From contig NZ_BAABIS010000001.1 of the NCBI RefSeq assembly GCF_039542905.1, forward strand, positions 310,001 to 374,000: 64,000 bases of DNA, in the 5' to 3' direction. Position 1 is the first letter of the stretch. Every line of letters starts with the position of its first letter. Both the position numbers and the translations under genes were made by a program. Below the pieces are notes generated by a model. It was not told the DNA's origin and did no database searches. It saw nothing but the letters and a program-made list of their open reading frames with translations. Source of the stretch: Kitasatospora terrestris. Lineage in GTDB: Bacteria > Actinomycetota > Actinomycetes > Streptomycetales > Streptomycetaceae. Positions 9,913 to 53,852 of the stretch are shown piece after piece.

Positions 9913-9991
9913 CGGGAGCTCCTTGGGGCAGGGACTCGGCCCTTGGCGGTACGAATCGCTAGTTATGACGTGTTGTTTCGGAACTGACTGG

Positions 9992-10050
9992 AGCCTAGGA
10001 GTCCGGGTCCAGGTCGGTCAATATCCTTATGCCGTACTGTTACGTAAGTA
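9992..10050 (-). promoter_or_regulatory. Promoter of the sugar operon with upstream TACTTACGTAAC element
   Basis: On the minus strand the order is TACTTACGTAAC (10039-10050), 17 bases, TTGACC (10016-10021), 18 bases, TAGGCT (9992-9997). The implied start of transcription is about 75 bases before the binding-protein ATG. The same layout recurs at 11813-11871. The upstream element contains the perfect palindrome TTACGTAA. It also overlaps the likely -35 region of the ROK gene, whose -10 may be TAAGAT at 10058-10063. Confidence 0.65.
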
Positions 10051-10105
10051 CCTGGCGTAAGATGGGGGCACGGCCGCAGGGGGCGGCCCGGGAAGGCGAG
10101 GTGCC

Positions 10106-11302
10106 GTGAACAGCCCAGCTCTGACCGGCGGCGATCCCGCCCTGCTGCGCCGCCTGAACACCGAGGCGGTCCTGCGGGTGCTCCGCAACGCCGAGCCGAT
10201 GACCCTGACCCGGATCGGGCACGGGGCGTCGCTCTCGCGCCAGACCGTCGACGCGGTGATCGCCGAACTGGCCGAGGACGGGTGGATCGAGGAGGTCGCC
10301 CCGGAGCGCGGCATCGGGCGCCCCGCCCGGCGCTACCGCTTCCGCGCGGAGGCCGGACACGTGCTCGGCATCGACGTCGGGGTCACCGGCCTGCGCCTGG
10401 TCCTCACCGACCTCGACGGCACGGTCGTCGCCGCGGACCAACGCGCCGTCGCCGAGAACCTCGGCGGAGCCGCCCGGCTGGAGGCCGTACGGGCCGGCGC
10501 CCACGACTTCCTGACCCCCCATCGGGACATCCGCCTGCGCGCGCTGTGCCTGGGGATCCCCGGCATCGTCGACGCCCGCGGCACCGTCCGGCTGTCCACC
10601 CCCCTGCCGGAGTGGAGCGGCCTCGACCTGACGGGGGCGGCGAGCGGCTGGTTCGACTGCCCGGCGTACGCGGAGAACGACGCCAACCTCGCCACGCTCG
10701 CCGAGCACTGGCTCGGCGCCGCCCGCCACGTCGGCGACTTCATCCACGTCATCGCCGGACACCGCACCGGTGCGGGGATGATGCTCGGCGGCCGGCTGCA
10801 CCGCGGACGCGGCGGCGCCGCCGGCGAGATCGGCGCGCTGGCCGTGCTCGGCTGGGAGAGCGACAGCATGAACGACGTCCGCGAGGCCGAGGACAGTGCC
10901 CGGCTGTTCGCCGACGCCCAGGCCGGCGACGCCGGGGCGGCGGGCGCCGTCGACCGGTTCGCCCGCACCCTGGCCCAGGGCATCGCCGCCATGGTGCTGA
11001 CGGTCAACCCCGACCTGGTGGTGATCGGCGGCGGCCTCTCGCAGGCCGGCGAGGCCATGGTCGGCCCGATCCGCGCCCACCTCGACCAGCTCTGCCTCGA
11101 CCCGCCGCAGGTCGACGCCTCCGCCCTCGGCACCGAGGCTGTCGCCCTCGGCGCCGCCCGGCTGGCCCTCGACCACCTCAACGACGACCTCTTCGGCGGC
11201 GCCGCCTCCGCACCGGGCGCCCCCGCCCGTACCGGCGGGGCCGGTCGCCCGCTCAACCGCGGCGCCTTCGAACCCCCGGCCCGGCGGCTGCCGTCGTCCT
11301 GA
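10106..11302 (+). CDS. ROK-family transcriptional regulator
   Basis: This 398-residue regulator is divergent from the sugar operon. An N-terminal winged helix-turn-helix (about residues 12-70, with the recognition part SLSRQTVDAVIAELAEDG) is joined to a ROK sugar-sensing domain. The phosphate loop is GIDVGVTGLRLVLTDLDG and the ENDAN block is kept. The usual ROK zinc motif (CGxxGCxE) is missing: the matching stretch reads GEIGALAVLGWESDS. It therefore probably does not bind zinc in the normal way and may sense ligand differently. GTG start at 10106 with a GGAAGG-type ribosome site. It is the natural candidate to control the adjacent transporter operon and itself. Confidence 0.9.
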   Translation: MNSPALTGGDPALLRRLNTEAVLRVLRNAEPMTLTRIGHGASLSRQTVDAVIAELAEDGWIEEVAPERGIGRPARRYRFRAEAGHVLGIDVGVTGLRLVLTDLDGTVVAADQRAVAENLGGAARLEAVRAGAHDFLTPHRDIRLRALCLGIPGIVDARGTVRLSTPLPEWSGLDLTGAASGWFDCPAYAENDANLATLAEHWLGAARHVGDFIHVIAGHRTGAGMMLGGRLHRGRGGAAGEIGALAVLGWESDSMNDVREAEDSARLFADAQAGDAGAAGAVDRFARTLAQGIAAMVLTVNPDLVVIGGGLSQAGEAMVGPIRAHLDQLCLDPPQVDASALGTEAVALGAARLALDHLNDDLFGGAASAPGAPARTGGAGRPLNRGAFEPPARRLPSS

Positions 11303-43381: not shown

Positions 43382-43876
43382 TCAACACCACGCCTGACCG
43401 AGCAGTCCCATGGTCCACTCCCGCTGCTCGGCGGTGTCCGGGACGGCGAGTCCGCGGGCTCGTTCGACGTGGTTCCAGGCGGTGTCGGGATCGACGCCGC
43501 CGAGGATGAGGAGGGAGGCCGCGAGGAGGGACGAGCGTCCGATGCCGGCTCGGCAGTGGGTGACGACGTGTGCGCCGCCGCACAGCCGCTCGGTGAGTCC
43601 GTGCAGGGTCGGCAGGATCGCGGTGCGGTCGGGGACGGCGCGGTCGGGGATGGGCAGCGCGACGAACTGCAGCCCGGCCGCTGCGGCTGCCGCGGGTTCG
43701 TCGGTGAGGCCGAGTTCGTCGAGTTCGGGGCCGGTCAGGGCGCAGACCAGGACGTCGACGCCGTGGTTCTTCAGCGCGGCCATCTCGTCCTCGAGCCAGT
43801 CATTGCCGCGGGGTCTGGCCATGGTGCTCAGTCGTCCGGGGCCGGGGAGGTCGAGGGTGAAGAGGGTGGGTCGCAT
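43382..43876 (-). CDS. Dual-specificity-type protein phosphatase
   Basis: 164 residues from the ATG at 43876. The frame runs upstream into a Cys-rich stretch that is not part of the family. The catalytic loop is HCRAGIGRSS, with Cys108 and Arg114. Asp78 in PIPDRAVPD is the likely general acid. The N-terminal LPGPGRLSTMARPRGNDWLEDEM block is typical of the bacterial dual-specificity group. It is cytoplasmic. A second enzyme of this class lies at 33037-33549, but the two are not close copies. Confidence 0.9.
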   Translation of the reverse strand: MRPTLFTLDLPGPGRLSTMARPRGNDWLEDEMAALKNHGVDVLVCALTGPELDELGLTDEPAAAAAAGLQFVALPIPDRAVPDRTAILPTLHGLTERLCGGAHVVTHCRAGIGRSSLLAASLLILGGVDPDTAWNHVERARGLAVPDTAEQREWTMGLLGQAWC

Positions 43877-45405: not shown

Positions 45406-45529
45406 CTACCGCTCCGTTCACCTGTCGTCACGTTCTGCATTCAAGGATCGGCTTGCGAGGCTAGCATCGGAAGTCCCCCGCACTTGACACTTGCGGGTGT
45501 GGGACTCGGAGCTCTCAGGGGGATCGGCC

Positions 45530-46360
45530 GTGCGACGTACCGAGCTTGACCCGTCGTCATCTCCGGTTGCGGCGTTCGGCGTCCAACTGCGCAGGTCACG
45601 CGAGGCGAAGGGGCTCTCGCAGGTCCGCTTCGGGCGGCTGATCGGCTACAGCGACAGCTACCTGTCATGTATCGAAAGAGCGGAACGCAATCCCACTCTC
45701 GTACTGGCCCAGCGGGCGGACGCGGCCCTCGACACCGGCGGCACCCTCGAGTTGATGTACTGGAACATCAGCCACACCGCCCTGTTCGAGGGCTTCCCGG
45801 AGTACGCCCAGCAGGAGGCCGGGGCCTCGGTGATCCGCATCTTCGAGTTGGGCGTGGTCCCGGGGCTCCTGCAGACCCACGAGTACGCCCAGGCGCTGGA
45901 GGCCGGGGCCGTCGCCCGGGGAAGCGCCACCCGCCAGCAGGCGGACGAGCGCGTCGCCTTCCTGCTCACCCGCCAGGGCAGCGTGGAGCGCAGGCCCCCG
46001 CCGCTGGTGCACGCCGTGCTGGACGAGAGCTGCGTCCGCAGCGCGGTGGGCGGGCCGGCCGTCCTCGCACGCCAGTTGGAGCACCTGGAGCGCCTCGCCG
46101 AGCAGCCGACGTTCATCATCCAGATCGCCCCCTTCGACCTCGGCGAGGGCCGGCCGTTTTTGCGCCCGGTGATCCTACTGACCCTGCGGGACGGCACCAC
46201 GCTCGGCTACACGGAAACCCACCAAAGGGGTTACCTGGAGCGGGATATCGCCACAGTGACGGAGTGGGACAGGGACTACGATCGGCTGCAGGTCGAGGCA
46301 CTGTCCCAGGCGGCATCCCTTGCAGTGATCCGCCAGGCCCGGAAGGAACTGTCAGCATGA
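45530..46360 (+). CDS. XRE-family regulator with DUF5753 domain
   Basis: 276 residues from the GTG at 45530, preceded by AGGGGG. The frame opens 13 codons earlier. The N-terminal HTH is RRSREAKGLSQVRFGRLIGYSDSYLSCIERAERNPT. The DUF5753 domain follows (about 100-270) with VPGLLQTHEYAQALEAG, ADERVAFLLTRQ and LERDIATVTEWDRDYDRLQVEAL. Proteins of this type (WhiJ-like) control development or antibiotic genes together with a small DUF397 partner, which here overlaps the stop codon. Confidence 0.93.
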   Translation: MRRTELDPSSSPVAAFGVQLRRSREAKGLSQVRFGRLIGYSDSYLSCIERAERNPTLVLAQRADAALDTGGTLELMYWNISHTALFEGFPEYAQQEAGASVIRIFELGVVPGLLQTHEYAQALEAGAVARGSATRQQADERVAFLLTRQGSVERRPPPLVHAVLDESCVRSAVGGPAVLARQLEHLERLAEQPTFIIQIAPFDLGEGRPFLRPVILLTLRDGTTLGYTETHQRGYLERDIATVTEWDRDYDRLQVEALSQAASLAVIRQARKELSA

Positions 46361-46581
46361 TGTACGACGGCATCAACCTGAACGAACTGAGCTACGAGAA
46401 GAGCCGCTACAGCGGCAACGGCGGCTCGTGCGTCATCTGGTCCAAGGCCCTGGTCGAGTCCCACGGCCTCATGGTGGTCGGCGACAGCAAGGACCCGGGC
46501 GGGCCGAAGCTGGTCGTGCCGGTGGCCGCCTGGACGGGCCTCTGGGACGCCGCTGCCGCCGACGAGTTCAGCGGCGCCTGA
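46357..46581 (+). CDS. DUF397 small protein, partner of the XRE regulator
   Basis: The 74-residue DUF397 protein shows the family pattern: EKSRYSGNGGSCVIW near the start, then VVGDSKDPGGPKLVVPVAAWTGLWDAA. The ATG at 46357 overlaps the XRE stop (ATGA), so the two are translationally coupled. DUF397 proteins are thought to relieve repression by the XRE partner by direct binding. Confidence 0.93.
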   Translation: MMYDGINLNELSYEKSRYSGNGGSCVIWSKALVESHGLMVVGDSKDPGGPKLVVPVAAWTGLWDAAAADEFSGA

Positions 46582-48578: not shown

Positions 48579-50354
48579 TCAGTGCGCGGGGGCGGCCTGG
48601 CTGGCGACCAGGTCGCGGTAGGGGGTGCAGCGGGCCAGCAGGGTGGAGTGGTCGCCGGCGTCGAGGACGGCGCCGCGGCCCATCACCACCACGTGCTGGG
48701 CGTCCTGCACGGTGGAGAGCCGGTGGGCGACCACGATCACGGCGCGGGTCGCGGCGAGGCGGCCGACGATGGCGCGGAAGCGCTGTTCGTTGAGGCCGTC
48801 GAGCTGGCTGGTCGGCTCGTCGAGGAGGATGATCTCGGCGTCCGAGAGCAGCGCCCGGGCGAGGGCCATCCGCTGCCGCTGCCCGCCGGAGAGGTCGGCC
48901 TCGCGGCCGATCGGGGTGTCCAGGCCCTGCGGCAGGCGGGCGATGTCCTCGGTGAGTCCGACGGCGTCGAGCGCGGCGTCGAGCTCGTGCGGGTCGGCGG
49001 GGGTGCGGCGGCCGAGCTGGAGGTTCTCCCGGACGGTGGCCTCCAGCAGGGTGAACGCCTGGTCGACGTAGGCGATCCGGGCCCGCAGGGCGTCCAGCGG
49101 CCAGTGGCGGGTGTCGTGGCCGAGGACGGTGATCGAGCCGGCGGACGGCTGGATGAACCGGTCGATCAGGGCGAGCGTGGTGCTCTTGCCCGCCCCGGAG
49201 GAGCCGACCACGGCGGTCAGGCCGGTGCGCGCGGTGGTGAAGGAGATGCCGCGCAGTGCGGCGTCGGCGGCGCCCGCGTGGGTGTAGCTGACGCCGTGGA
49301 AGACCACCGAGGGCGCGTCCGGGACGGGCGCGGGGACGGGCAGCGCGGCGTCCTGCGGGTCGGCCTCGGGCGGCAGGTCGAGCAGTTCGTTGCAGCGGTC
49401 GCGGGCGGCGAGGCCGGCCTGCAGGCGGCCGAAGCCGGTGGCGAGGGTGCTCACCGACGGGACGGTCTGCAGCAGGTACAGCAGGAAGGCGGCGAACGCC
49501 CCGACCTCCAGGTCGCCGGCGGCCAGCCGGGCGCCGCCGGTGAGGATCACCGCGATCATCGCGAACTGGTTGCCGAGCGTCAGCACCGCCGGGACGAGCG
49601 CGCCGAGCCGCGCCCCCTCCAGCGACACCACCCGCAGCTCCTCCGCGTCGGCGGCAAGCGCCCGGGCGGCGACCGGTTCGGCGCGGTACGCCTTGACGGT
49701 GGTGAGGGCGTCCAGGGTGGCGGTGTAGCGCTGGGCGATCCGGCCGACGGCGTCCTGCTGGCCGGTGACGTTGCCCTTCATCCGGCGCAGGATCAGCAGG
49801 ACCAGCACGGTGAGCACGGCGAGCGCGCCGACCGTGACCAGGGTGAGCACCCAGTCGATCCACACCATGACGAGCAGGGTCGCCCCGACGGTGAGTGCGG
49901 CGAGCGGCAGTTGGGTGGCCACCTCGACGACCTGGCGCAGCAGCAGCGCGTCGGAGGTGATCCGGGCGGCGAGGTCGCCGACGCCCTGGGCGCGGACCAC
50001 GGCCAGCGGCAGCCGCAGGCTGTGCTCCATCAGGCGGATCCGCAGCCGGTAGGTCATCCGCTCGCCGATCCGGGCGAGCAGGAAGCCGGAGGCGGCCTGG
50101 CTGAGCGCGCCGGCGAGGGCCGCCCCGCACATCGCCAGGACGGCGGGGCCGAGCGGGTGGTGTTCGGAGAATTCGGCGATGATCTCCCGGACCAGCAGCG
50201 GCAGGAGGAGGCCCGCGGCGGTGGCGACGAGGGCGAGCAGCAGGGCGCCGGCGAGCCGCAGCGGGTGGGCGGTGAGTTCGCGGCGCAGGCGCAGCCGCGG
50301 AGGGCCGGGGACGCGGGGGGTGGTCCGGGGAGTCGGGGCGGCGGCCACGGGCAA
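48579..50354 (-). CDS. ABC exporter of the class III lanthipeptide locus
   Basis: The 591-residue half-transporter has a membrane domain (about 1-320, six segments) fused to an ATPase domain (about 350-585). Walker A is [11 protein letters not shown], the signature is [16 protein letters not shown], Walker B is [12 protein letters not shown], and the switch His is in VVAHRLST. There is no peptidase C39 domain, so it does not remove the leader itself. It most likely exports the modified peptide encoded directly upstream. SapB-type loci usually carry two such genes (ramA and ramB); here there is one, so it would work as a homodimer. Confidence 0.92.
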
Positions 50355-50478
50355 CCTCTCTGCTGGACGTGGATCGGGCCGCAGCGGTCGGCTGCGGCCC
50401 GGGTACCGGCCGGGCCCGTGGTGCGGCGGGCCCGGCCGGCGATGGGTGCCTGGCTGCGCTCGGCGGCGCAGGGTCAGG

Positions 50479-50616
50479 TCACAGGCAGAGCAGGGTGCTC
50501 ACCGTGCTGGTCCCGCAGTTGACGACGCTGAGGGAGCTGGTGCTGGCGAGGGTGTCGTCGATCGGGGCCGCCTCGGTCTCGGGCAGCTCCATGGTCTGGA
50601 GGTCGAGGATCGCCAT
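50479..50616 (-). CDS. Class III lanthipeptide precursor, SapB/AmfS-like
   Basis: The 45-residue precursor starts at the ATG at 50616, with AAGGAG upstream. The leader (about residues 1-24) begins [11 protein letters not shown], containing the (I/L)LDLQ motif that class III synthetases recognise. The core holds two S-x-x-S-x-x-x-C units, SSLSVVNC (27-34) and STVSTLLC (37-44), the same arrangement as SapB and AmfS, from which two lanthionine or labionin rings form. Only one residue (Leu) follows the last Cys. It lies between the LanKC and exporter genes, 94 bases after the former. Leader removal must rely on a protease encoded elsewhere. Confidence 0.92.
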
Positions 50617-50710
50617 GACTGTTCTCCTTCTCACTACTGTGACCCACCCGGCCGGACGGCCGGGAGTTCGGTGGGGGCGCCGCGCGGGCGCCCGGGGGGG
50701 TGGCGTGCGG

Positions 50711-53293
50711 TCAGTTCGCCGCGGCGGTACCGGTCCAGGGCAGGAACGGGGTTCCGGCCAGGGCGGTGCCGAGGGCGAGCAGGACGCCGGCGGATCCGGT
50801 GGCCAGGTCCGCGGAGAGCCGCAGCAGCTGGTCGCCGGGGAAGGCGGGGTGGCCCTGGTAGGTGACCTGGTGCAGGGTCAGCAGGGCGCGTTGGCGGTCG
50901 AGCAGCGCGGACCCGTCCGGGTCGGCGGCGCGGTGGCGGGTGAGCGCGAGGTAGCCGATCAGTCCGGCGCGGCCGTTGAACAGGCCGGGCTGGATGATGA
51001 ATTCGGGTTCCGCGGCTCGGCGGATCGCCGCCTCGTGCCGTCCGGTGGGGCTGTCGGGGCGGTGCGCGAGCAGCGCGTCGACGGCGAGTCCGATGCCGGC
51101 GCTCCCGGTCTCCAGGTAGGGCAGGACGCGGCGCCCGTCGAGCACTTGGAAGGTGCCGTCGGCGACGGGGGTGCACCGGTCGAGGTCGAGTTCGAGCAGG
51201 GCCTCGGCCTGGTCGAGCAGGGCGCGCTCCCCGGTGCGTTCGGCGAGCCGGACGAGGGCGAGGGCGGTGCCGGAGGCGCCGGCCAGCAGTCCGGCGCGCC
51301 GCCTGGGGTCGTCGCGGCCGGCTTTCTCCAGGTCGGCGGCCGAGGTGCGGGCCAGGGCCAGCGCCTCGTCGAGGTGGCGCTCGCTGCCGGTGGCGTCGGC
51401 GAAGTGCAGCAGGGCCAGGGCGATGCCGGGTGCGCCCGACGCCAGTGAGGTGCCCGGGTCGGCCGTCCGGTCGCGGTCCGGCGCGGCGAGGCGTTCCAGC
51501 AGCCCCAGGGCCGTCTCGCGTTCGCCGAGCAGGTCGAGGACGTACGCGACGCCGTGGCCGCCGTGGTAGAGGCCGGGGGTGGTGCCGCGGGTGCGGGCGG
51601 CGTCGGCGAGCCAGCGGACGTGGTCGGGGTCGACGGGTGCGCCGGTGGCGTGCAGGGCGTACAGGACGCCGGCGGCGCCGTGGGCGATGCCGAGCCCGCC
51701 GAGGGTGAACTGGGCGACGTCGCCGGGGAAGAGCCGGTCGGTGCGTTCGGGGCTCGCCGTGGCGGCGATCCCGGCGGCCAGCGCGTCCCTGATCCGGGGC
51801 CAGTCCGCCTCGGGTGCGGCCAGCAGGGCCTTGGCCTCGGCGCGGCGCAGGCCGAGCGCGGGGCGCCGGGTGCGGCCGTCGTCCGGTGCGGCGCCGAGGT
51901 AGCGGCGGATCGCGTCGGTGTAGCCGGGCGGGACCGGGAAGCGGGCCTCGATGGCGTCGGCGAGTTCGGCGGCCTTGCCGGGGTCGAGCGCGGGCAGTTG
52001 GGCGAGCGGGTAGAACAGCCACAGCCGGACGGCGGCGAGCGCGTACCGGTCGATCTCCGTCCCGGTGTAGCCCCGGGGTGCGGTGAAGCCGGCGGCGCCG
52101 AGCGCCGGGCGGAGGAAGTCCTCCTCGGTGCTGGCCAGTTCGAAGTCGATGAAGCAGAGCTCGCCGTCCGGGCGCAGGATCAGGTTGCGCGGGTGGAGGT
52201 CCCCGAAGACCACCCCGCGGGCGTGGATGCCGGCCAGCGCCCGCTCCAGGCGGTCGACGATGTCGAGCGCGTCGCGGGTGTAGGCGGCGACGGCGTCCGG
52301 GTCGGCGTCCGGGTGGATCAGCGGGTACTCGGCGGTCAGCCACTCGCTGAGGGAACGGCCCTCCACGTACTCCTGGACCAGGAACTCGTGCTCCCAGGCC
52401 GTCAGCAGCCCGTGCTGGGCCGGTACTCCGGGCACGCCGGCGAGCCGTTCCAGGACGGCGTGCTCGTTGCGCAGCCGGGTGACCGCGTCCACGCCGCGCT
52501 GGTCGAGGCCGGCCAGTGGCCGGGCCTCCTTCAGCACCACCTGCGGCCCGTCCGCGCCGGTGGCGCGGGCCAGGTAGACGCCGCCCGCGTTGGAGAAGTG
52601 CAGGACCCGCTCCACGGTGTACGGCAGCCCGCTGTCGCGCTGGGCGGCCCGCGCGGCGACGGCGGGGGCGACGGCCGGCGGCACCGGCGCCCAGTCGGGC
52701 ACGGCGAAGCCCGGTCCGCGCACGTCGGGGACCAGTCGGCCGTCCGGGTGGGTCAGGGCGAGCACCCGCTCCCCCGCCTCGTTGCGGCAGTACTGCTCGG
52801 CGAAGCCCCCGTACCGCAGGTAGAGCGGCCCTTCGCCCCAGCGCAGGTCGCTGAGGACGTACGGTCCGCGCCGCCCGGCGAGCAGGGTGCCCAGGCCGTC
52901 GAGACATCGTTCCAGCGCCTCGTCGTCGACCGGGTAGATCGTGCAGAACTTGCCGCTGGCGCCGCGCGGGGCGTACTTGGAGTTCTGGACCTGGAGGATC
53001 GGCAGTCCGCGCAGGAACTTGAAGGCCGTCCGCTCCCGCAGGCAGTACGCGAAGACCGTCTCCAGGACCTCCTCCGCGTCCTCGGCGCACGAGGAGACGT
53101 GGATCTTCCAGCCCTGCTCCGGCAGCCGCACCCCGGTGGGCCGCACGACGGCCCAGATCTCCAGGTCGCCCCGCTCCCAACCTGCCGGCAGCGGGCGGGT
53201 CACGGCGGCGAACTCCTCGGTGGCGCCCCAGCGGCGGGGCGAGTCGTAGAAGTGCGGGTCTGCGTAGGCGTACGCCTCGTAGCGGTTGTCCAA
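50711..53293 (-). CDS. Class III lanthionine synthetase (LanKC, RamC-like)
   Basis: The 860-residue three-part enzyme dehydrates Ser/Thr of the precursor and forms rings. The N-terminal lyase region covers about 1-215. The kinase domain (about 225-500) has Lys255, catalytic Asp365 in VVFGDLHPRNL and metal-binding Asp383 in FIDFELA. The LanC-like cyclase domain (about 510-860) lacks the zinc Cys-Cys-His ligands (GLYHGGHGVAY, LFNGRAGLIGY), as is normal for class III. The start is a TTG at 53293 with a strong GAGGAGG site five bases away. The precursor and exporter genes follow on the same strand. Confidence 0.95.
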   Translation of the reverse strand: MDNRYEAYAYADPHFYDSPRRWGATEEFAAVTRPLPAGWERGDLEIWAVVRPTGVRLPEQGWKIHVSSCAEDAEEVLETVFAYCLRERTAFKFLRGLPILQVQNSKYAPRGASGKFCTIYPVDDEALERCLDGLGTLLAGRRGPYVLSDLRWGEGPLYLRYGGFAEQYCRNEAGERVLALTHPDGRLVPDVRGPGFAVPDWAPVPPAVAPAVAARAAQRDSGLPYTVERVLHFSNAGGVYLARATGADGPQVVLKEARPLAGLDQRGVDAVTRLRNEHAVLERLAGVPGVPAQHGLLTAWEHEFLVQEYVEGRSLSEWLTAEYPLIHPDADPDAVAAYTRDALDIVDRLERALAGIHARGVVFGDLHPRNLILRPDGELCFIDFELASTEEDFLRPALGAAGFTAPRGYTGTEIDRYALAAVRLWLFYPLAQLPALDPGKAAELADAIEARFPVPPGYTDAIRRYLGAAPDDGRTRRPALGLRRAEAKALLAAPEADWPRIRDALAAGIAATASPERTDRLFPGDVAQFTLGGLGIAHGAAGVLYALHATGAPVDPDHVRWLADAARTRGTTPGLYHGGHGVAYVLDLLGERETALGLLERLAAPDRDRTADPGTSLASGAPGIALALLHFADATGSERHLDEALALARTSAADLEKAGRDDPRRRAGLLAGASGTALALVRLAERTGERALLDQAEALLELDLDRCTPVADGTFQVLDGRRVLPYLETGSAGIGLAVDALLAHRPDSPTGRHEAAIRRAAEPEFIIQPGLFNGRAGLIGYLALTRHRAADPDGSALLDRQRALLTLHQVTYQGHPAFPGDQLLRLSADLATGSAGVLLALGTALAGTPFLPWTGTAAAN

Positions 53294-53852
53294 CGGAACC
53301 TCCTCGGCACGGGGGTGCGGACGGGGCCGTGCAGCAGGCCGGCAGTAGGGGGAATCCCCCGCCGCCGGTGCGACAACCAGAAGTATTCAATCCCGATGAG
53401 TTCGTGGGCAACGGCGCTCCGGATGCTGTGTCAGCGGAATATTCACCACGGCGCGGGCTGCGATCCGCGAACGAGCCTTGGCGCGGACACGTACGCCCCC
53501 GCCACCCGGTCGACCCCCTCCGGCGTCCGCCGCGCGCCCCGCCGGCCATCGCCGCACACCGCCTCGACCTGCGCGGTCGTCAGCCACGGCGGCCCCCGAT
53601 CGGCCGCCCGCCCCCGGGGGCGCCACCGGCGCACGCGCTCTCGGCATTAACGGTTCCGCATGGTCCAATTCATCTGGAACCATTGTCCTTTTTATGGAAT
53701 GCGAACGAACAGACGCACACGAATCGCATTGGTGTTCGCATGAAAAAGCCATTGTCGATCGCCTCGGTGAGGCGCCTCGCCTCCCGCCCGCCTCCGGCCG
53801 ATCCTGGAGCGAGCAGCCGGCTGCCGTGCCGGCGGATCGAGGAGGCCGGACC
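53294..53852. other. Long divergent regulatory region upstream of the lanthipeptide genes
   Basis: 559 bases between the LanKC gene and the next plus-strand gene. It holds the palindrome GGGGG-AAT-CCCCC (53348-53360) in the LanKC leader and an AT-richer stretch (about 53640-53760). Within that are the inverted repeats ATGCGAAC (53699-53706) / GTTCGCAT (53734-53741) and GGTTCC/GGAACC (near 53652-53680). A minus-strand frame at 53443-53634 has high third-position GC but no recognisable domain. No LuxR-type RamR regulator gene is present. Confidence 0.5.

Follow-up and report, generated by a model that had tools for sequence, protein, structure and literature searches.

A SapB/AmfS-family class III lanthipeptide locus of Kitasatospora terrestris with a single exporter of probable class V type

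Genes of the locus and class of its product

We analyzed a small lanthipeptide locus in a 64,000-nucleotide (nt) stretch of Kitasatospora terrestris DNA (assembly GCF_039542905.1, contig NZ_BAABIS010000001.1, positions 310,001 to 374,000; hereafter called the window). Three genes on the minus strand, in the order LanKC, precursor, exporter, encode a class III lanthipeptide synthetase, a precursor peptide of the SapB/AmfS family, and one ATP-binding cassette (ABC) half-transporter. The SapB/AmfS family is well known; the news lies in the exporter, which was probably captured from a class V lanthipeptide cluster. The features are as follows, and the three genes lie where the initial annotation of the window had placed them, all on the minus strand.

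50711..53293, minus strand: LanKC, class III lanthionine synthetase (lyase-kinase-cyclase), 860 amino acids (aa), TTG start; NF038151, Pfam RamC_N, Pkinase, LANC_like
50479..50616, minus strand: precursor peptide, SapB/AmfS family, 45 aa, 26-residue leader plus 19-residue core (predicted boundary); NF033212, PF19402
48579..50354, minus strand: ABC half-transporter (exporter), 591 aa, transmembrane domain plus ATPase (ABC_membrane, ABC_tran); putative class V lanthipeptide type
53380..53417, minus strand: candidate promoter/operator element GCGCYGTTG-N20/21-MAYAHTTC, beginning 124 nt upstream of the LanKC start

LanKC is a class III lanthipeptide synthetase: it scores 1028 bits against NF038151, the class III LanKC model (cut-off, 575), and 393.5 bits against NF038150 (LanL), below the cut-off of 650, and phmmer aligns it with solved LanKC chains (e.g., 8sao) across the lyase, kinase, and cyclase parts. 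The kinase residues are intact at the positions first claimed for them, K255 in VVLKEARP, D365 in GDLHPRN, and D383 in FIDFE. Zinc ligands had been described as lacking, and indeed a Cys-Cys-His site is impossible, because C707 is the sole cysteine past residue 380. ThurKC is likewise described as devoid of zinc ligands, and its maturation reaction as leader helix binding, phosphorylation, elimination, and metal-free cyclization (PMC10604976). The TTG start is preceded by a GAGG-type ribosome site. Other LanKC-like genes in the window genome have at most 34% identity.

The precursor carries ILDLQ at residues 3 to 7 and SxxSxxxC at residues 27 to 34 and 37 to 44, so that the 45-residue peptide, the (I/L)LDLQ leader motif, and the two S-x-x-S-x-x-x-C units of the initial annotation were all recovered. 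It scores 56.4 bits against NF033212 (cut-off, 25) and 56.6 bits against PF19402 RamS (cut-off, 24.3), and the 8.57-Mb genome gave no other match to the SapB/AmfS family; by model score, leader motif, and double SxxSxxxC, the peptide is a member of that family. A search against class III lanthipeptide databases had been proposed as a check, and since LanKC and the precursor both score far over the curated cut-offs, the class of the product is known and chance is excluded.

Ten neighboring genes, called and scanned with Pfam, lie within ~5 kb on either side. Among them, we found no second ABC gene, no LuxR-type regulator, and no assignable leader protease, in agreement with the single exporter, the missing linked RamR, and the missing nearby protease read from the letters alone. 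The Pfam scan also revealed no peptidase domain in the half-transporter. That no leader protease is linked is nothing out of the ordinary, since actinobacterial class III loci are described as mostly having none (PMC7268733); M1-family, AplP-like enzymes, often encoded elsewhere, are reported to cut the leader in several cases (PMC10885120). The window genome has six M1-family matches, none of them assignable to the locus.

Relatives of the locus and conservation of the core

In the genus group of 70 genomes, 16 (window included) have a LanKC with 77 to 100% identity to that of the window (type A), and 16 others have one with 56 to 65% identity (type B); all 31 loci other than that of the window were retrieved. 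No genome with both was found among the 70 in this search, which, like our other genome searches, scored part of the first-look candidates per genome (e.g., 13 in the LanKC genus search and 47 in the RamR search). LanKC, precursor, and one exporter stand together in 15 of the 16 type-A genomes of the genus, with the locus L043 as the exception; LanKC, precursor, and two ABC genes do so in 13 of the 16 type-B genomes (L107 is cut by a contig end). Seven more genomes with type A (G070, G105, G112, G114, G116, G122, and G132) came from a search of 297 family genomes; in G112, the LanKC contig stops before the exporter. Flanking genes mostly differ between loci, and shared ones occur only among a few, so the unit is the three genes. 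Gene lists stem from a simple gene caller, which overlooked some genes, such as the L105 RamR, recovered by the genome search, and the L058 precursor. In two type-B-like loci, L059 and L060 (genomes G016 and G001), a shared gene pair (~124 to 156 aa and 685 aa) follows LanKC and precursor.

In the LanKC tree (72 rows; rows of <640 aa, exact duplicates, and named loci with <47% identity were omitted), 24 rows fall into one starred clade, namely, 22 with a single exporter plus L043 and L092 (G112). This clade sits within a starred 44-row clade that holds 17 loci of the RamA/RamB type. The simplest reading of the tree would be one replacement of the RamA/RamB pair by a single exporter.

A single exporter is not very unusual in class III overall. 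Among 80 named loci (LanKC recovered in 71), eight besides ten type-A loci carry one close downstream exporter (L136, L140, L141, L143, L145, L146, L157, and L176), and the exporters of these eight are of a different branch and stand beside a different kind of precursor. Seven of them (all but L141) come from several families and have short precursors and cores with an HPC(S/N)S..TSY-like stretch (APCSSFITSY in L176); they are a separate recurrent single-exporter group. What sets the type-A locus apart is that it is of the SapB type and appears to have traded the exporter pair for one exporter of class V. In the open-licence literature, a scope that makes both negatives weak, we found no paper pairing "class III lanthipeptide" with "single ABC transporter" and no match to the core strings, LSVLNCG among them.

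The leaders differ in length between the types, with 26 to 27 residues before the last 19 in all 22 type-A precursors from the 21 loci read and 20 to 22 residues in all 16 type-B precursors called, within and beyond the genus. The precursor of L058, detected by tblastn alone, was left out of this count, and L115, the one named extra row of the 24-row clade, stands outside both the leader and the element counts. With the window core, type-A cores share 13 to 19 of the 19 positions, type-B cores 12 to 17, and each of eight fetched SapB-type cores 7. The double SxxSxxxC is retained in all 38 type-A and type-B cores (that of the window included). The core had been announced as a variant differing from SapB and AmfS; this holds with respect to the SapB-type cores, but it is not unique, since 38 precursors of the wider clade share 12 to 19 positions with it. 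Mean core hydropathy is 1.19 in type A, 1.09 in type B, and 0.47 in the SapB type. Judged from these alignments, the cargo core appears to have stayed nearly constant while leader and exporter changed. The type-A locus L041 (G029) has two tandem precursors with identical cores between LanKC and exporter (positions 9990 to 10339, LanKC-forward orientation).

A product with such a core may be surface active and may act in the formation of aerial hyphae. That it is an antimicrobial or signaling lanthipeptide and not a surfactant morphogen seems unlikely to us. Exporter kin of the type-A exporter serve class V peptides, and some class V lanthipeptides are antibiotics. Nevertheless, the core keeps the SapB-type double SxxSxxxC, varies little across the clade, and is even more hydrophobic than SapB-type cores (see the values above). 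Furthermore, the S26T variant of durhapeptin, with the same motif plan, is reported to have induced aerial hyphae in several streptomycetes, although not in its own producer (PMC13380574).

Origin of the exporter

A search of 394 Streptomycetaceae genomes gave 40 with exporter matches at E<=1e-125. We inspected the surroundings of all 19 homologues outside type A (45 to 65% identity). An LxmK-like gene is nearby in 17, among them L109, from which the LxmK query was taken; the homologue of L228, at a contig start, has Lxm-type precursors and other class V genes in its vicinity, and that of L232 has neither an LxmK-like gene nor other class V genes. Since class V (lexapeptide-like) clusters hold 18 of the 19 outside homologues, we reject the view that the exporter is a RamA or RamB left over. 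LxmK of L109 reaches 480 bits (cut-off, 315), and the LxmA leader model recognizes the precursor encoded there; the L108 genome has an LxmK of 426 bits, which lies across the border of the stretch fetched. That genome, G069, has two separate class V clusters (L108 and L227), each with an exporter of the window exporter's family, at 64% and 45% identity. In another class V cluster, L226 (G206:C1:7456737-7458488), the exporter homologue has a TGA inside the match.

The trees point in the same direction. In a 63-row exporter tree, all 21 type-A exporters fall into a single clade (98*) within the class V exporters, and RamA/RamB and the other class III single exporters branch elsewhere. A 29-row mixture-model tree (11 of the 21 type-A exporters, 14 of class V, and four others) gave 99/97 for the type-A clade and 100/100 for its union with four class V exporters; L225, which yielded no usable exporter gene, is absent from both trees. 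By its branching with exporters of LxmK-bearing clusters, the window exporter is placed in the class V type (SprT1/LxmT kind).

That type-A and class V exporters neighbor each other in the trees would also be expected if class V clusters had received the exporter from the type-A class III clade. We regard this reverse capture as very improbable: the type-A exporters form a single clade within a succession of several class V branches, and a constraint that put the 17 class V rows on one side was rejected (approximately unbiased test, p-AU 9e-38, quick tree). LxmK exceeded the cut-off in five of the 70 genus genomes (G018, G046, G055, G057, and G069) but in none of the 16 genus genomes of the type-A clade; the type-A loci therefore do not share their exporter with a class V cluster of the same genome. 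With a best LxmK score of 30 bits against the cut-off of 315, the window genome has no class V lanthipeptide cluster as judged by LxmK presence.

Still less probable is an ordinary ram/amf locus with RamA or RamB as the ABC gene left after loss of the other and of RamR. In its favor, the ram/amf character of LanKC and precursor is clear, and related loci carry the pair; however, the window exporter is only 27 to 43% identical to RamA/RamB-type genes over the aligned pieces and branches with class V exporters, which rules out a leftover RamA or RamB and contradicts this explanation.

The exporter had been proposed to act as a homodimer, and its canonical nucleotide-binding motifs are consistent with this. 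LSGGQ and, at Walker B, LLDEP occur in all 23 rows read for the exporter family (21 type A and two class V). RamA-like rows have LDD at Walker B in 22 of 29, those where the pattern was found; RamB-like rows have LDE in 27 of 29, several with an LSAGE signature. Intact LSGGQ and LLDEP here, compared to LDD in the RamA-like rows, fit a homodimer in type A, whereas the usual loci would have a heterodimer in which one site is weakened.

The nearest other ABC half-transporter match of the window genome (whole-genome search, E<=1e-30) has 30% identity and lies ~13.6 kb off, past LanKC (G000:C1:376940-378595). Neighbors within ~5 kb include an NlpC/P60 protein, HTH_31/DUF5753 and DUF397 genes, a VanZ protein, and an alpha/beta hydrolase. 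The HTH_31/DUF5753 regulator, followed by the DUF397 gene, is found at window positions 45491 to 46581, ~2 kb past the exporter; no matching family stands beside the other type-A loci read. A dual-specificity-type phosphatase is encoded at window positions 43382 to 43876, and a homologue lies directly upstream of LanKC in L041.

Control, proposed history, and known systems

A RamR-type regulator from a SapB-type locus was used as the query for RamR. In six of six control genomes, the best match stood beside the SapB-type locus, with 145 to 404 bits (one is the query's own). In ten Kitasatospora-group genomes (six type A and four type B), the best match had 117 to 129 bits, control paralogues had up to 120 bits, and no match above 130 bits was found in the 70 genus genomes. 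In the regulator tree, the six RamR rows group together at 100/100, and the four best matches of the window genome all fall elsewhere. These data support the absence of a RamR orthologue from the window genome, a lack apparently common to the type-B genomes tested. The initial annotation had stressed the missing regulator. It was right in that none is linked, and no orthologue was found in the genome either, but "no regulator" had to be dropped as a peculiarity of the single-exporter locus, because the two-exporter relatives tested, with nearly the same core, are also without RamR. The apparent absence of RamR from a whole group of loci of the SapB-like kind suggests that the textbook regulator is not needed for the family.

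A conserved element lies upstream of LanKC. GCGC[C/T]GTTG occurs within 650 bases upstream of the gene in 18 of 23 type-A-clade loci and in none of 41 other LanKC loci. The looser search pattern with the downstream half, GCGCYGTTG-N18..23-HAHWHTTC, has 15 matches in 845 kb (both strands, 23 loci), all upstream of LanKC and in the correct direction, and one match in the 8.57-Mb window genome, 124 nt upstream of LanKC, with 0 for the reversed control. Of 600 random stretches of 444 bases taken from these loci, five contained the exact GCGCCGTTG. Because a MAFFT alignment of the upstream regions had too many gaps to serve by itself, the element was anchored by pattern. We take it as a candidate promoter with operator, which makes it a bait for the real regulator. 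A general promoter/terminator scan of the locus found nothing, and no TTA codon (a possible link to bldA) is present in LanKC, the precursor, or the exporter gene. Eight SapB-type loci (L101 to L104, L106, and L110 to L112) have a TGCGTTNCGCAC-like word (<=2 mismatches) ~90 to 160 nt upstream of the synthetase, possibly a RamR site.

In sum, we consider it likely that the window holds a SapB/AmfS-family class III cassette with an exporter captured from class V, a changed leader and upstream control, and a nearly constant core, whose product is a probable morphogen made independently of RamR. In our model, LanKC would bind the ILDLQ leader helix and phosphorylate and dehydrate core serines 27, 30, 37, and 40; two rings would then be closed on Cys34 and Cys44, as lanthionine or labionin, between which the sequence cannot tell. 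For a core beginning at residue 25, 26, or 27, the loss of four waters gives a calculated monoisotopic mass of 1998.98, 1911.94, or 1810.90 Da, respectively. The single ABC exporter, as a homodimer, would take the peptide out, and an unlinked protease, e.g., an M1 metallopeptidase of the AplP kind, may remove the leader. In the ancestor of the clade, a class V lanthipeptide cluster would have supplied the replacement for the heterodimeric RamA/RamB-type exporter; the leader and the control element upstream would have changed along with it, and the hydrophobic core would have stayed nearly constant. The product would serve as a surface-active morphogen, with RamR-independent expression. We also lean, with less assurance, toward the wider statement that a morphogen locus was rewired on one branch, with the same hydrophobic SapB-like core but a new leader, a new promoter element, and a class V exporter.

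Several observations weigh against exporter capture with rewired control. The change of leader and exporter lies on one branch only and is therefore one event, not a repeated correlation. L043 (G053:C4:7112000-7131000) has a type-A LanKC, core, and long leader without an adjoining exporter, and its genome has no close exporter homologue at E<=1e-120. In the type-A locus L054 (G043:C1:4222000-4241000), LanKC is split over two frames, although the precursor and exporter frames are open. L059 and L060, outside the type-A clade, have no adjacent ABC gene, and hence, a linked exporter is not retained in every case. The class V exporters in the trees come from clusters of the genomes searched and not from the published lxm, cao, and spr clusters. 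The regulator adjoining a two-exporter locus in G035 has only 126 bits and falls outside the RamR group; since it scores like the paralogues, a strongly diverged RamR could hide among them. As to the upstream element, the exact 9-mer is missing from five of the 23 type-A-clade loci, and with one mismatch allowed, it is found in 21 of 23 type-A, five of 19 type-B, and one of nine SapB-type loci and in 95 of 600 random stretches. Since the loci used to build the pattern are also those in which it was counted, more weight attaches to its rarity elsewhere; other recurrent upstream words, in 12 of 19 type-B and 7 to 8 of nine SapB-type loci, were likewise built from the loci counted. A decaying cassette without a product, for which the missing exporter of L043 and the broken LanKC of G043 could speak, is nonetheless hardly credible, given that 20 of the 21 type-A loci read, that of the window among them, have a complete LanKC frame, a precursor, and an exporter, that the core is conserved, and that the LanKC kinase residues are intact.

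To our knowledge, the export of class III lanthipeptides has been little studied. If exporter capture is true, the type-A clade is a natural test of whether an exporter reads the leader or the core: the exporter was swapped whole and the cargo core was kept, and the leader change on the same branch points to the leader as what the exporter sees. Both the precursors and the exporters are small, and laboratory strains would allow swaps of them between the two locus types. The clade would also offer a RamR-free way to time aerial growth.

Three known systems bear comparison. The ram (SapB, Streptomyces coelicolor) and amf (AmfS, S. griseus) operons are alike in LanKC and short precursor, the (I/L)LDLQ-type leader, and two SxxSxxxC units, and, as given in PMC13380574, have the same order of synthetase, precursor, and exporter (ramCSAB, amfTSAB). 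They carry a RamA/RamB pair, whereas the window locus has one exporter of a different kind, no RamR orthologue found, 7 of 19 core positions in common, and another upstream element; the yardstick here was SapB-type loci of other genomes, not the S. coelicolor and S. griseus loci themselves. Two marks of a ram/amf operon proper, a RamA/RamB-type pair and a linked RamR/AmfR response regulator, are both absent from the window locus.

The dur locus of Streptomyces durhamensis is alike in belonging to the SapB/AmfS family, of which its authors count >4,000 members in NCBI, and in its hydrophobic double-SxxSxxxC core and central durKC, durA, and durT; as described, it has another ABC-domain gene and a response regulator at its flanks, its core sequence differs from that of the window, and it is compared by its authors with ramCSAB/ramR (PMC13380574).

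Class V clusters (lexapeptide lxm, cacaoidin cao, and pristinin spr) have an ABC half-exporter that appears to be of the same family, a kinship taken from the class V clusters in the genomes examined. In the published gene tables, spr lists one ABC_membrane plus ABC_tran gene, sprT1 (PMC7794033), and cao11 is listed as MdlB-like (PMC8068269); both spr and cao list further ABC-2-type transporter genes (PMC7794033, PMC8068269). In synthetase (LxmK/X/Y versus LanKC), precursor, and tailoring genes, these clusters differ wholly from the window locus.

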